From the IMG/VR virus record IMGVR_UViG_3300046616_000136, positions 1 through 39,549 of that record: a stretch of DNA of 39,549 bases; one strand, written 5' to 3'. The notes under the pieces were generated by a model, which did no database searches, was not told the DNA's origin, and saw nothing but the letters and a program-made list of their open reading frames with translations. How positions within the stretch are numbered: position 1 is the stretch's first letter; each line of letters starts with the position of its first letter. Source of the stretch: a virus. Made by a program: the position numbers and the translations under genes. Of this stretch, positions 5,556-28,254 are shown piece by piece.

Positions 5556-6041
5556 GTGGCGACCATCATTGAAGTGACGGACCTGCCTGCGGCGCTGCAG
5601 AGCGACGAGATGGCAGCAGTCATGGTGGCCGGCGCGAACGCGCGGGCGTCACGGGTTGCCCCCTGTCTCACCTGGGATGGCACGGTTGAGGACCAGCCGG
5701 AACCGACCGCCGACCAGTTGGCGGAGGCGAAACTGGTTCTGATCGGCGCTGTGCGTCGCTGGGTCGACGCTGGTGCTGGGGCTTTGCAGTCGCAGACCGC
5801 TGGCCCGTTCGCGCAGACCGTCGATACCCGGCAGCGCACCGGGTACAACCTGTGGCCTTCCGAGATCACCAACCTGCAGGCCATTTGCAAGACGTCCGGT
5901 TCTGGTTCGCGCGAAGCGTTCTCGCTGGACACGTACTCCCCCACTTCGAGCCACCTTCCTTGGTGCTCGCTCATGTTCGGCGCCCTGTACTGCTCCTGTG
6001 GTGTTGACATCGCAGGTGAGCCGATCTTCGAGCTCGACTGA
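5556..6041 (+). CDS. Head-to-tail adaptor
   Basis: A 161-aa protein starting at GTG 5556 behind AAGGAGGGGG. It begins with acidic helices (residues about 8-30, 49-70) and has a beta-rich end. Position directly after the capsid block and the 1-base stop/start overlap with the next gene match the adaptor (gp6/gp15-like) that binds the portal after packaging. No motif is unique; the assignment is from conserved gene order and helical N-terminus. Confidence 0.75.
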   Translation: MATIIEVTDLPAALQSDEMAAVMVAGANARASRVAPCLTWDGTVEDQPEPTADQLAEAKLVLIGAVRRWVDAGAGALQSQTAGPFAQTVDTRQRTGYNLWPSEITNLQAICKTSGSGSREAFSLDTYSPTSSHLPWCSLMFGALYCSCGVDIAGEPIFELD

Positions 6042-6385
6042 TGTTCGCGCACGGCGAGCCGGTCGTTTTCGTCTCCCCGACGGTGGTCCTGAACGACTAC
6101 TCCGGTGAGGTCGAAGGCGAGGACTGGGACACCCCCGTCACCGAACTCTCAACGACGTGCGGGGTTGAACCGATCGCGTCTGAGGAACCGCCACAGGACG
6201 GCCGGCAGTCCGTGATTGTGGGGTACCGCCTGTACTTCGACCACATCGTCGAGATTGACCCGGACTGGCGTTGCGTGGTGCGTAACAGCCCACTGCGGGT
6301 CCAAGGCCGCGCCGCGGACTGGCGTTCGCCCTTCACTGGTTGGGCTCCTGGTTCCGTTGTTGAGGTGAGGTGGACTGATGGCTAG
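6041..6385 (+). CDS. Head-to-tail stopper
   Basis: A 114-aa, beta-rich protein whose ATG overlaps the previous stop (TGATG). It contains GYRLYFD at about residue 61 and ends with VVEVRWTDG, a pattern seen in head-closure/stopper proteins (SPP1 gp16/HK97 gp7-like). It would cap the portal-adaptor channel. The order adaptor-stopper-gp10-like-tail terminator is the standard siphovirus order, and the assignment leans on it. Confidence 0.75.
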   Translation: MFAHGEPVVFVSPTVVLNDYSGEVEGEDWDTPVTELSTTCGVEPIASEEPPQDGRQSVIVGYRLYFDHIVEIDPDWRCVVRNSPLRVQGRAADWRSPFTGWAPGSVVEVRWTDG

Positions 6386-22661: not shown

Positions 22662-22795
22662 CCGCATGTTTTCCTACTGGTGCGCCCGAAGGGATTCGAA
22701 CCCCTAACCTTCTGATCCGTAGTCAGAACGTTTGTTAGACTCACCTGTAGGAGACGTGCTCCTGACCTGCTGGTTTGTACGCTCAGGATATCCTG
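22654..22795. other. attP: attP region with tRNA-Arg(ACG) 3'-half core
   Basis: The core, 22678-22727, is the reverse complement of the end of a bacterial tRNA-Arg: TCTGACTACGGATCAGA (anticodon ACG), then the T-arm GGTTCGAATCC-type segment, ending GGGCGCACCA. No 5' half is present, so it is an attachment core, not a tRNA gene. Flanking elements: GCAGGTCA (22654-22661) and inverted TGACCTGC (22763-22770), AGGAG-ACGTG-CTCCT (22749-22763) and the palindrome CAGGATATCCTG (22784-22795), which are candidate arm sites for integrase or Xis. Integrase starts at 22847. Confidence 0.92.
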
Positions 22796-25705: not shown

Positions 25706-26166
25706 GTACCTACGAGCCGGGAACCGTGGCCGTTGCCACCATCGACGGCGAGCAGGTCCGCGTCTCTCGATTCCGTGATGAGGGATGGATGCTGCTGACC
25801 GACCCCGACTACTTCTGGCCGGACGACGGCAACGCCCCGGTCACCGACGTCCGCCCCCTCGTGGTGCTAGACCTCGACGGCGGGGAGGCGAAGGAACTCG
25901 CCGACTACCTCAGCGGCGTCGACATGCATCTCAGCATCGGCGACCGGCTCAACATCTCGCGCCAGATCCTCCAGCAGACGAAGCCGCCGCGCATCCTCGA
26001 GCCGGGACTGTGGGGCATCGTGACCGCGCGCGAGGAGAACGCCATCACGGAGCACGACTGGGTGCACTTGCCGACTGGCGCGTGGGCATCCCTCGGGGGC
26101 TCACGACTTAGCACGTGGCGCAACCTGATCGACCCCACCCTCATCCGCGAGGGGGTGTCGTCATGA
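25702..26166 (+). CDS. Hypothetical early protein
   Basis: A 154-aa protein starting at GTG 25702. Acidic, with beta-rich first half (TVAVATIDGEQVRVSRF, MLLTDPDYFWPDD) and a second half repeating a similar layout (GLWGIVTAREEN, DWVHLPTGAWASLGG). It may hold two small SH3-like barrels. Not recognised. 4-nt overlaps on both sides. Confidence 0.6.
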   Translation: MSTYEPGTVAVATIDGEQVRVSRFRDEGWMLLTDPDYFWPDDGNAPVTDVRPLVVLDLDGGEAKELADYLSGVDMHLSIGDRLNISRQILQQTKPPRILEPGLWGIVTAREENAITEHDWVHLPTGAWASLGGSRLSTWRNLIDPTLIREGVSS

Positions 26167-26510
26167 CACTCCTGATCGAGGGTGCGCGCCCCGTGTGGGC
26201 CATCAGCGGAACCCACGGCATGGACGCGTGGATCGTGGTTGACGGTGACGACGTGTGCCTCACGTCGGAGGACATCGCGGGCGCACGCCGGGAGTTGGAG
26301 TCGCCGGACAACGTGTCCGGGTTGGCGCCTCTGGGTCCGGTGTTTGTGGATGAGTCGCAGCTGACGGCGATCCTGCACGGGCCGGCGTTGGATGACTGCC
26401 GGTGGTGTTCGGGTCCTGGTTTGGTGACTGTCGAGGGCGTGCTGGTGTGTCCGGGGCACGCGGCTGGGTTTGGCATGGCGGAGTCCGAGTCGATGGAGGC
26501 CGCCCGATGA
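26163..26510 (+). CDS. Hypothetical protein with a zinc-ribbon-like end
   Basis: A 115-aa protein, ATG 26163 in ATGA overlap. N-terminal beta-rich part (WAISGTHGMDAWIVVDGDD) and C-terminal CRWCSGPGLVTVEGVLVCPG followed by His, a CxxC-x(13)-C-x2-H pattern that probably binds zinc. Codons shift from C-ending to G/T-ending in the middle, so the C-terminal part may have a different origin. Role unknown. Confidence 0.6.
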   Translation: MTLLIEGARPVWAISGTHGMDAWIVVDGDDVCLTSEDIAGARRELESPDNVSGLAPLGPVFVDESQLTAILHGPALDDCRWCSGPGLVTVEGVLVCPGHAAGFGMAESESMEAAR

Positions 26511-26722
26511 GCGTCCCACTCGACCTGTCTACCGAAGACCTCCGCAACCTCGCATCGGCCCTCGAAGCGTTCGCCAAGGCAGCCAACAACTACAACGTCA
26601 TGATCGGCGGTTACGGCGACATGAACGTGACGGTGGTCAGCGGCGAGGACGCGACGGTCATCAAGGTCGCGTGGGACTCGGACCTTCAGCAGTACCGCAT
26701 CGACGACTGGATCGGCTCATGA
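26507..26722 (+). CDS. 71-aa acidic hypothetical protein
   Basis: ATG 26507 in ATGA overlap. N-terminal helix (LSTEDLRNLASALEAFAKAA) followed by beta strands (MNVTVVSGEDATVIKVAWD) and acidic end. No family. It directly precedes the surface protein gene. Confidence 0.6.
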   Translation: MSVPLDLSTEDLRNLASALEAFAKAANNYNVMIGGYGDMNVTVVSGEDATVIKVAWDSDLQQYRIDDWIGS

Positions 26723-27453
26723 ACCGCCTGACCGCGGTCACGGTCCTGACTGCCGCGTCCATCGCCTTCGCAGCCCCCGCGTTCGCAACCAAGGGCCACG
26801 ACAAGCCCGCGGTGTGTCACCCGAAGGCTGGCGGGTGGACGTTGATCTCACCCGATAAGGCCAGCAGCCACATCGACGAGGTCACGGGGCTGCCGAAGCA
26901 CGAACACCAAGGCCGGGTGGACGTGTACGCCACCAACGGTTCCTGCCCGCCCATCACCCCGACACCCACAGCCACAGGAGGCACACCATCAGCAACCCTG
27001 ACGCCATCTTCGACGACGACCAGCCCGTCAAGTTCGACAACAAGCTCATCGACGACGTCCGCGCCGCCTTCGTCGTCGAGCACCAGCCCCCCGTCACCGT
27101 CGCAGACCTCCTCGACGCCAACGCCGACCGCTCCAACTACGAGCACTACCTCGCCCTCCGTCGAAGCGCCGATAACCCGACCGTCGCATCCTTCCTCCGG
27201 CTCGTCGAACTCATCGCCGAGCGCCACCTCCACGACCAAGCCCTCGCCCGCCTCTCCCCGGAGGAACGCACCGAGTTCGACCGTCGCACCGCCTGAGCAC
27301 CTGGCCTACACCGGGGGCGAGCTCAGTGACGCCGCGTACGTGGCCCTGTTCCTACTGTTCGTCGGCGCAATCCTCGGCGGCTTCGGGTGGCTCCTGTCCC
27401 GCAAGCCCAAGCCTGCCGACCCGACCGAGACAGACGGCGAGGACCAGTCATGA
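26719..27453 (+). CDS. Predicted LAxTG sortase-anchored cell-wall protein
   Basis: A 244-aa surface protein. Sec signal at residues 1-23 (cleavage AFA-TK), a small folded domain (about 24-78) with two Cys (33, 76) and His-rich PKHEHQGR, a 110-residue Ser/Thr/Pro stalk (about 79-192), LAYTG at 195-199, a TM segment (about 206-227) and basic RKPK. LAxTG is the signal of class E-type sortases in high-GC actinobacteria; no sortase is encoded here, so the host enzyme would attach it. Sitting in the early operon, it could mask receptors or exclude other phages. A second protein-like frame overlaps the stalk. Confidence 0.8.
   Translation: MNRLTAVTVLTAASIAFAAPAFATKGHDKPAVCHPKAGGWTLISPDKASSHIDEVTGLPKHEHQGRVDVYATNGSCPPITPTPTATGGTPSATLTPSSTTTSPSSSTTSSSTTSAPPSSSSTSPPSPSQTSSTPTPTAPTTSTTSPSVEAPITRPSHPSSGSSNSSPSATSTTKPSPASPRRNAPSSTVAPPEHLAYTGGELSDAAYVALFLLFVGAILGGFGWLLSRKPKPADPTETDGEDQS
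26988..27296 (+). CDS. Overlapping -1 frame ORF with possible AUC start
   Basis: Inside the stalk of the surface protein, the -1 frame is open for 102 codons with almost all third positions G or C and a normal soluble composition: acidic start (NPDAIFDDDQPVKFDNK), then helix FLRLVELIAERHL and LSPEERTEFDRR. AGGAGG stands 6 nt before ATC 26988; there is no ATG, GTG or TTG. Either AUC initiates, as in infC-like cases with AUU, or this is an ancestral gene whose start was lost when the stalk frame took over. It is real-looking but unproven. Confidence 0.45.
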   Translation: MSNPDAIFDDDQPVKFDNKLIDDVRAAFVVEHQPPVTVADLLDANADRSNYEHYLALRRSADNPTVASFLRLVELIAERHLHDQALARLSPEERTEFDRRTA

Positions 27454-27638
27454 GCGCGGTCCTCGGGTGGTGGTTCGCGCTGTGCATGGTCGGCGCTCTC
27501 TGTGCCGACGTGGCGATCGTTCGTGACTCCTGGAAGCGCGGATGGATTGCGCTGGCTGCCTTCGGTTCGTTCGCCGCCATGTGCGCCGTCGTGGGAATCG
27601 CGTTCCTCGCAATCGCAGTCGTCGGCGGTGCGTCATGA
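27450..27638 (+). CDS. Two-TM membrane protein
   Basis: A 62-aa protein, ATG 27450 in ATGA overlap with the surface protein. Segments LGWWFALCMVGALCADVAIV and, after a basic loop (RDSWKRG), WIALAAFGSFAAMCAVVGIA span the membrane. Translational coupling to the surface protein suggests a joint envelope function. No family recognised. Confidence 0.65.
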   Translation: MSAVLGWWFALCMVGALCADVAIVRDSWKRGWIALAAFGSFAAMCAVVGIAFLAIAVVGGAS

Positions 27639-27955
27639 CTGCCATCGCCGACGCATCCGGTGACGCATCCGCCCTGTGGCCCTGGCACGTCTGGGCGCTC
27701 ATCGCCATCCTCACCGCCGCCATCTACGCCGTGTGGCGGATCCTCGACTCTAAGCAACCCTTCCCCACCCCGAAAGCCGAACCCGAACCCACCGGCTGCA
27801 ACGCGACCAACCCGCACCGCATGCTCCCCACCGCGACCGGGTGGAGGTGCGCCAACCAGTGCGGCGAGGCCTGGTACATCGACCCCACCGACGCACTCGC
27901 CACCGCCGACCTCGCACTCTGGGAAATCGAAAACGACTGGCAGGTCGAAGCATGA
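27635..27955 (+). CDS. Single-TM protein with Cys pair
   Basis: A 106-aa protein, ATG 27635. TM at about residues 17-36 (HVWALIAILTAAIYAVW) followed by a Pro-rich linker and a cytoplasmic-like domain with CNATNPHRM and CANQCGEAWY, a possible zinc knuckle, then acidic helix. It is the third envelope protein in a row and overlaps neighbours by ATGA. Unknown role. Confidence 0.62.
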   Translation: MTAIADASGDASALWPWHVWALIAILTAAIYAVWRILDSKQPFPTPKAEPEPTGCNATNPHRMLPTATGWRCANQCGEAWYIDPTDALATADLALWEIENDWQVEA

Positions 27956-28254
27956 CCCGGCCCAAGCTCCTCGACGAGATAAGCGCAGAACTCACACGCC
28001 AGGACTCCCTGTGGGGAGAACAGAACCACCCAGACGGGACAGGTGGTCCAGTCCGCCGACAAATGGCCAACGCCCAACGGGACCTGTGCGAACTCAAAGC
28101 ACAACGTGGCGAAGTCACGTACCGCGACATCCTCGCGGAAGAGGTTGCCGAGGCATTCGCAGAGTCATACCCAACGCGCCTGCGCGAGGAGCTAATCCAG
28201 GTCGCAGCCGTCGCCGTTGCGTGGATTGAGGCAATCGACCGGAGCAATACATGA
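27952..28254 (+). CDS. MazG-like NTP pyrophosphohydrolase family protein
   Basis: A 100-aa all-helical protein. DEISAELTRQDSLWG, then DILAEEVAEAFAES (EExxE-like) and REELIQVAAVAVAWIEAID match the small all-alpha NTP-PPase/MazG-like proteins common in actinophages, which hydrolyse nucleoside triphosphates or alarmones. Catalytic Glu/Asp positions are partly visible (EE at about 72-73, Asp near the end). ATG 27952 in ATGA overlap. Confidence 0.62.
   Translation: MTRPKLLDEISAELTRQDSLWGEQNHPDGTGGPVRRQMANAQRDLCELKAQRGEVTYRDILAEEVAEAFAESYPTRLREELIQVAAVAVAWIEAIDRSNT

Follow-up and report, generated by a model that had tools for sequence, protein, structure and literature searches.

Locus and its two reading frames

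The sequence analyzed was the 39,549-base IMG/VR virus record IMGVR_UViG_3300046616_000136, the whole of which we refer to as the window. Its portal protein is nearest to those of Gordonia, Mycobacterium, and Propionibacterium phages, and its exonuclease is nearest to those of Microbacterium and Arthrobacter phages. Window positions 26163 to 28254 contain a series of small genes with ATGA-type start-stop overlaps. Among them is a gene for a putative surface protein with a Ser/Thr/Pro stalk (frame A), which is in a tight operon, with ATGA overlaps with its neighbors at both ends. A second frame (frame B) is nested beneath the stalk. The features of the locus, and the corresponding features in three related phage contigs described below (L228, L229, and L235), are as follows.

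26719-27453, + strand: frame A, an ORF for a 244-amino-acid surface protein (ATG at 26719, TGA at 27451-27453), with homologues in L228, L229, and L235
26719-26787, + strand: signal peptide MNRLTAVTVLTAASIAFAAPAFA, assigned by inspection
26791-26952, + strand: small Cys/His ectodomain (CHP..SSHIDE..DVYA..CPP), present in L228 and L229 too; L235 has another
26953-27300, + strand: Ser/Thr/Pro stalk of frame A, 78% Ser/Thr/Pro across the overlap
26976-26981, + strand: AGGAGG, a Shine-Dalgarno-like site for frame B, with a duplex energy of -10.3 kcal/mol
26988-27296, + strand: frame B, a nested -1-frame gene of 102 codons plus TGA, for a small acidic protein that is predicted to be helical and has no signal peptide
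26988-26990, + strand: ATC, the proposed frame B start; ATG is at the corresponding site in L228, L229, and L235
27093-27290, + strand: conserved C-terminal core of frame B (VTVxxLLD ... SFxxI ... LxPxxRxxFxRR); the homologous part of L228 is predicted to be helical (pLDDT 84 to 96)
27294-27296, + strand: frame B stop TGA, which each of the four phages has directly before LAxTG
27301-27315, + strand: LAYTG sortase-type sorting motif (LALTG, LAYTG, and LAHTG in the homologues)
27331-27396, + strand: transmembrane segment of the sorting signal, assigned by inspection
27397-27450, + strand: charged tail of frame A, assigned by inspection

By inspection, the order of signal peptide, stalk, LAxTG motif, transmembrane segment, and charged tail is the same in all four phages. 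Residues 195 to 219 of frame A also gave a weak match to the NCBIfam LAVTG anchor (NF058582; E value of 0.024, below the cut-off). This architecture is shared with LPXTG/LAXTG sortase-anchored proteins (NF041528, NF058582, and PF00746), but here the protein is phage encoded and its stalk carries a second gene. Frame A would be anchored to the wall by host secretion and a host class-E-type sortase, and its architecture suggests that the stalk holds the small ectodomain off the cell.

The original prediction, made from the window alone, was that the frame under the stalk is open for 102 codons from the ATC at 26988 to the TGA at 27294-27296, with AGGAGG 6 nt before the ATC. Both statements proved accurate, and the frame is also open for 43 codons further upstream of the ATC. 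Its composition had been described as normal for a soluble protein, but it is better called acidic, with a net charge of -8 and no Met, Cys, or Trp. Frame B proteins are acidic in all four phages (net charge of -8 to -16), and none has a signal peptide, which suggests that the protein is cytoplasmic.

In an AlphaFold2 model of the L228 protein that drew on only three sequences, residues 72 to 142 formed helices (pLDDT 84 to 96) and most of the N-terminal half was at low confidence. Folded by itself, the window protein had five helices and a mean pLDDT of 66. The C-terminal approximately 70 residues are therefore predicted, with good model confidence, to be a helical domain. Fold searches found no relative among solved or viral structures, and searches of Pfam, PHROGs, and PDB sequences gave weak matches only. 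The N-terminal region is shorter in the window than in L228 and L229. In L228 (positions 405 to 836), the N-terminal half of frame B has a Cys/His-rich motif, CHERAEHWHHHESDDYYCH, and L229 has its own version, CDERAEHWHQHGDEYCH. This motif, which might bind metal, is missing from the window protein.

What the stalk codons explain

Frame B could be a by-product of the stalk codons, which would force C into position 3, leave the frame open, and yield protein-like text rich in Asp, Val, Leu, and Ala. Two features of the window sequence are fully explained in this way. The near-total G/C third positions noted in the original prediction are real, with a frame B GC3 of 0.90. However, stalk codon position 2 becomes frame B position 3, so the stalk sets this value: it equals the GC content of stalk codon position 2, and it was invariant in 5,000 stalk-synonymous resamplings. 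Because the Ser, Thr, Pro, and Ala codons of the stalk have C at position 2, the high GC3 is not evidence for a gene. The open frame is not evidence either, because it was open by chance in 16 to 33% of the resamplings (P = 0.16 to 0.33 given the stalk amino acids, depending on the null). Simulated stalks also yielded text superficially like frame B, and its amino-acid pair statistics showed no excess over the null.

The frame B codon score had a z of 3.1 to 3.2 against synonymous nulls, compared with a z of up to 2.95 (standard deviation of 1.27) for the same off-frame of ordinary window genes. The signal beyond chance from the window genome alone was modest. For comparison, we took 17 stalk windows of sortase substrates from actinobacteria and scored their -1 frames. 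Their maximum was 0.23, versus 0.20 to 0.51 here, and the stalks of these chromosomal proteins did not have a gene-like -1 frame, which argues against a simple by-product. Even so, the single-genome statistics were indecisive, and our main argument comes from homologues instead.

The converse idea, that the stalk composition results from reading a gene one base off, was partly upheld. Such a reading would be expected to give 52±4% Ser/Thr/Pro, which explains a good part of the stalk but not the 78% observed. This suggests one way in which genes and spacers may share DNA: a gene rich in C at position 3 gives approximately 50% Ser/Thr/Pro one base off and so provides a ready-made stalk.

We surveyed 1.7 Mb of GC-rich actinobacterial and phage DNA for similar stretches. 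Open frames of at least 150 codons contained a total of 164 windows, each 80 codons long and with a Ser/Thr/Pro content of 60% or more, and many of them resemble off-frames of ordinary genes. Such off-frames are easily mistaken for stalk proteins, and low Ser/Thr/Pro purity is a warning sign. The frame A stalk, at 78% across 100 codons, is above nearly all of the windows surveyed.

Conservation of both frames in related phages

Homologues were not easily found. Two single window proteins, P0001 and P0002, had none in INPHARED phages or IMG/VR, and P0001 had none in genome contigs. P0001 and the ectodomain also had none in 395 actinomycete genomes each. A syntenic search with the exonuclease and MazG-like neighbors yielded about 110 loci, but tblastn of the 80-odd viral ones found neither frame. 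Apart from the MazG-like gene, the small genes at 26163 to 28254 had no relatives in the fetched syntenic loci. Relatives were found in two other ways. A degenerate DNA pattern for the ectodomain led to L228 and L229, and alignment of the frame B protein led to L235, in which the ectodomain differs. All three are IMG/VR phage contigs, making four loci in all, each from an uncultured phage. A profile of the alternative frame, run over the collected loci, revealed no frame B locus beyond these four. (A weak match in L241 was rejected because it resembles a LuxR-type regulator.)

All three relatives have a frame B homologue under the stalk. The window protein is 45% identical to that of L228 across 69 amino acids (E value of 6e-11) and 46% identical to that of L235 across 68 columns. 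The L228 and L229 proteins are 44% identical across 144 columns (E value of 1e-22). The original prediction of overprinting, or double coding, would be undermined by homologues that keep one frame only or by a lack of frame B conservation. Neither was seen among the three homologues. In addition, their frame B similarity exceeded what their stalks alone would produce, as follows.

For the null, we held one sequence's stalk amino acids constant, took codons from the other sequence at matched residues with a set probability, and drew the remaining codons from codon usage. The statistic was the frame B Smith-Waterman score. Scores were 115 versus a null of about 40 to 41±12 for the window and L228, 86 versus 36±9 for the window and L235, 225 versus 82±21 for L228 and L229, 131 versus 53±11 for L228 and L235, and 104 versus 51±10 for a fifth pair. 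Therefore, frame B similarity was above the null in five of the six pairs (z of 3.9 to 5.4). The exception was the window and L229 (35 versus 31±5), which had no significant similarity on their own. In controls, off-frames of the nonoverlapped N-terminal part gave z values of -1.4 to 2.2, and the third frame gave -0.9 to 2.9.

We also did the reverse test by keeping the frame B protein and resampling its codons. The resampled stalk frame was 51 to 54% Ser/Thr/Pro, compared with 71 to 78% observed, so the stalks exceed the frame-B-only expectation (z of 5.1 to 7.8). Furthermore, the stalk frame stayed open in only 3 to 5% of these resamplings, and in the phages the anchor is in frame. Frame B similarity above its null, together with stalk Ser/Thr/Pro content above the frame B expectation, indicates that both frames are under selection.

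Two other comparisons were less clear. Fourfold stalk sites within the overlap did not have clearly higher identity than those beyond it, so the signal comes from where the changes fall and not from reduced divergence. Alignments guided by the stalk protein gave weaker permutation signals for the window pairs, because low-complexity stalks align poorly.

Overprinting is easily claimed from composition, above all in GC-rich low-complexity off-frames, but here the claim survived the homologue test. An explanation by stalk codons alone is now very improbable. It does not account for frame B similarity among the four loci, which exceeds that of stalk-only nulls and of the controls, for the ATG in three relatives and the conserved TGA, or for the discovery of L235 through the frame B protein itself. 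These comparisons indicate that frame B is not a by-product of base composition. Four divergent phages retain both uses of this stretch, and we therefore think it very probable that frame B is a genuine gene, conserved and overprinted on the stalk of a predicted wall protein that the phage encodes.

L235 also differs from the window in an informative way. Comparison of L235 positions 5579 to 6349 with window positions 26719 to 27453 revealed that the ectodomain has been exchanged, whereas the stalk, nested gene, and anchor have been kept. This suggests a modular display cassette common to otherwise different phages.

Proposed start of frame B and possible roles of the two proteins

The original prediction raised the question of whether relatives have ATG at the start site, and L228, L229, and L235 all do. 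In each, the next base is G, and so the stalk reads TGG. This accounts for a Trp in each of their stalks that would otherwise seem out of place (TTTW, TTTW, and TSTW). Upstream of the ATG, frame B has an in-frame stop after three open codons in L228 and five in L235, which places the predicted start of these two at the ATG. The same facts bear on a different idea, that -1 frameshifting within the stalk, at the C-run around 27090 for instance, produces a secreted, unanchored hybrid of ectodomain and frame B. A run of six Cs does precede the conserved core within the stalk, and a hybrid would be without LAYTG. However, each relative has a candidate ATG start of its own, closely preceded in two cases by an in-frame stop, and this makes frameshifting highly unlikely.

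The window has ATC at this site, and the base that follows is A. An ATG, GTG, TTG, or CTG there would put TGA into the stalk, and ATA would put TAA into it. Therefore, ATC and ATT are the only near-cognate starts that the stalk allows. The Shine-Dalgarno energy is -10.3 kcal/mol in the window, whereas the relatives range from -5.3 to -6.6 kcal/mol and the median for window gene starts is -7.4 kcal/mol. AGGAGG occurs 11 times on the + strand of the window, and three other copies precede likely ATG or GTG gene starts. The stronger ribosome site may offset a weaker start.

The seven strongest start codons in E. coli gene calling include AUC, and an E. coli overlapping coding sequence with a putative AUC start is on record (PMC12350097). 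AUA, which is similar to AUC, supports up to about 1% of AUG initiation (PMC12864459). On balance, we favor AUC as the frame B start codon in the window, although with some reserve. Because it is a weak start, the frame B protein could be scarce or absent in this phage.

Absence would fit another explanation, in which frame B is real in the relatives but is not made in the window phage, where the ATG has been lost and a fresh pseudogene lies under a living stalk. The ATC where relatives have ATG is compatible with this, as are the shortened N-terminal region and the sizeable chance that the frame would stay open under the stalk anyway. On the other hand, the identity of the window protein to those of L228 and L235 is far above the null, the Shine-Dalgarno site is stronger than that of any relative (the opposite of decay), and ATC is one of just two starts that the stalk tolerates. 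We consider a pseudogene unlikely. Our preferred explanation is that frame B is made as a separate protein by internal initiation on the same mRNA, from ATG in the relatives and most likely from AUC in the window. If so, this is a clean natural case of a second frame dictating the permitted start codons. Gene finders normally annotate just one of two such proteins.

The closest familiar arrangement is that of embedded two-component phage spanins, such as lambda Rz/Rz1, which are nested genes in which +1 and -1 phases both occur (PMC6139136). As in Rz/Rz1, one phage gene lies within another but is read in a different frame, one of the two proteins is secreted and rich in disorder-promoting residues (Rz1 is Pro rich), and selection keeps both. 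However, spanins act together to disrupt the outer membrane of Gram-negative hosts. In the present case, the host is probably Gram positive, the outer gene encodes a predicted sortase-type wall protein, and overprinting is confined to its stalk. The frame B protein lacks an export signal, and the cassette is beside repressor and exonuclease-side genes. An i-spanin/o-spanin pair was rejected, because frame A has a C-terminal LAYTG and transmembrane segment and frame B has neither a signal nor a lipobox. Neither frame matched a spanin in PHROGs or Pfam. Viral overprinted genes in general (reviewed in PMC8227390) likewise have a second frame nested on the same strand, and the nested E. coli ORFs, including the one with a putative AUC start, indicate that non-AUG starts are possible (PMC12350097). 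What differs here is that four divergent phages support both frames and that the dual coding itself explains the exclusion of an NTG start.

We lean slightly toward the nested gene being older than the stalk. A fold is predicted for it, in contrast to the low-complexity stalk. A shift of one base in reading such a gene would immediately yield about half Ser/Thr/Pro, and the ectodomain has been exchanged while stalk, nested gene, and anchor stayed together. Among the loci searched, none had just one of the two frames.

The phages carrying this dual-coding cassette are temperate and probably actinobacterial. The cassette is between the integrase, repressor, and excision-type genes and the exonuclease gene, and from this position, both proteins probably act on the host early in infection or during lysogeny. 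More speculatively, and we would not press the point, the surface protein might act in superinfection control or lysogenic conversion and the nested protein in host takeover or antidefense. It is a still more tentative idea that dual coding forced the AUC start and so set a low, fixed ratio to the surface protein, with the two acting as inner and outer arms of one host-control system.

A separate observation concerns window positions 22679 to 22724. These 46 bases match attachment/repressor regions of mycobacteriophage Bipper, Gordonia phage UmaThurman, and an M. abscessus prophage at 95 to 100%. The shared stretch includes gggattcgaacccc, which resembles the 3' portion of a minus-strand tRNA gene. 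Therefore, it is probably the attP core adjoining the integrase gene.
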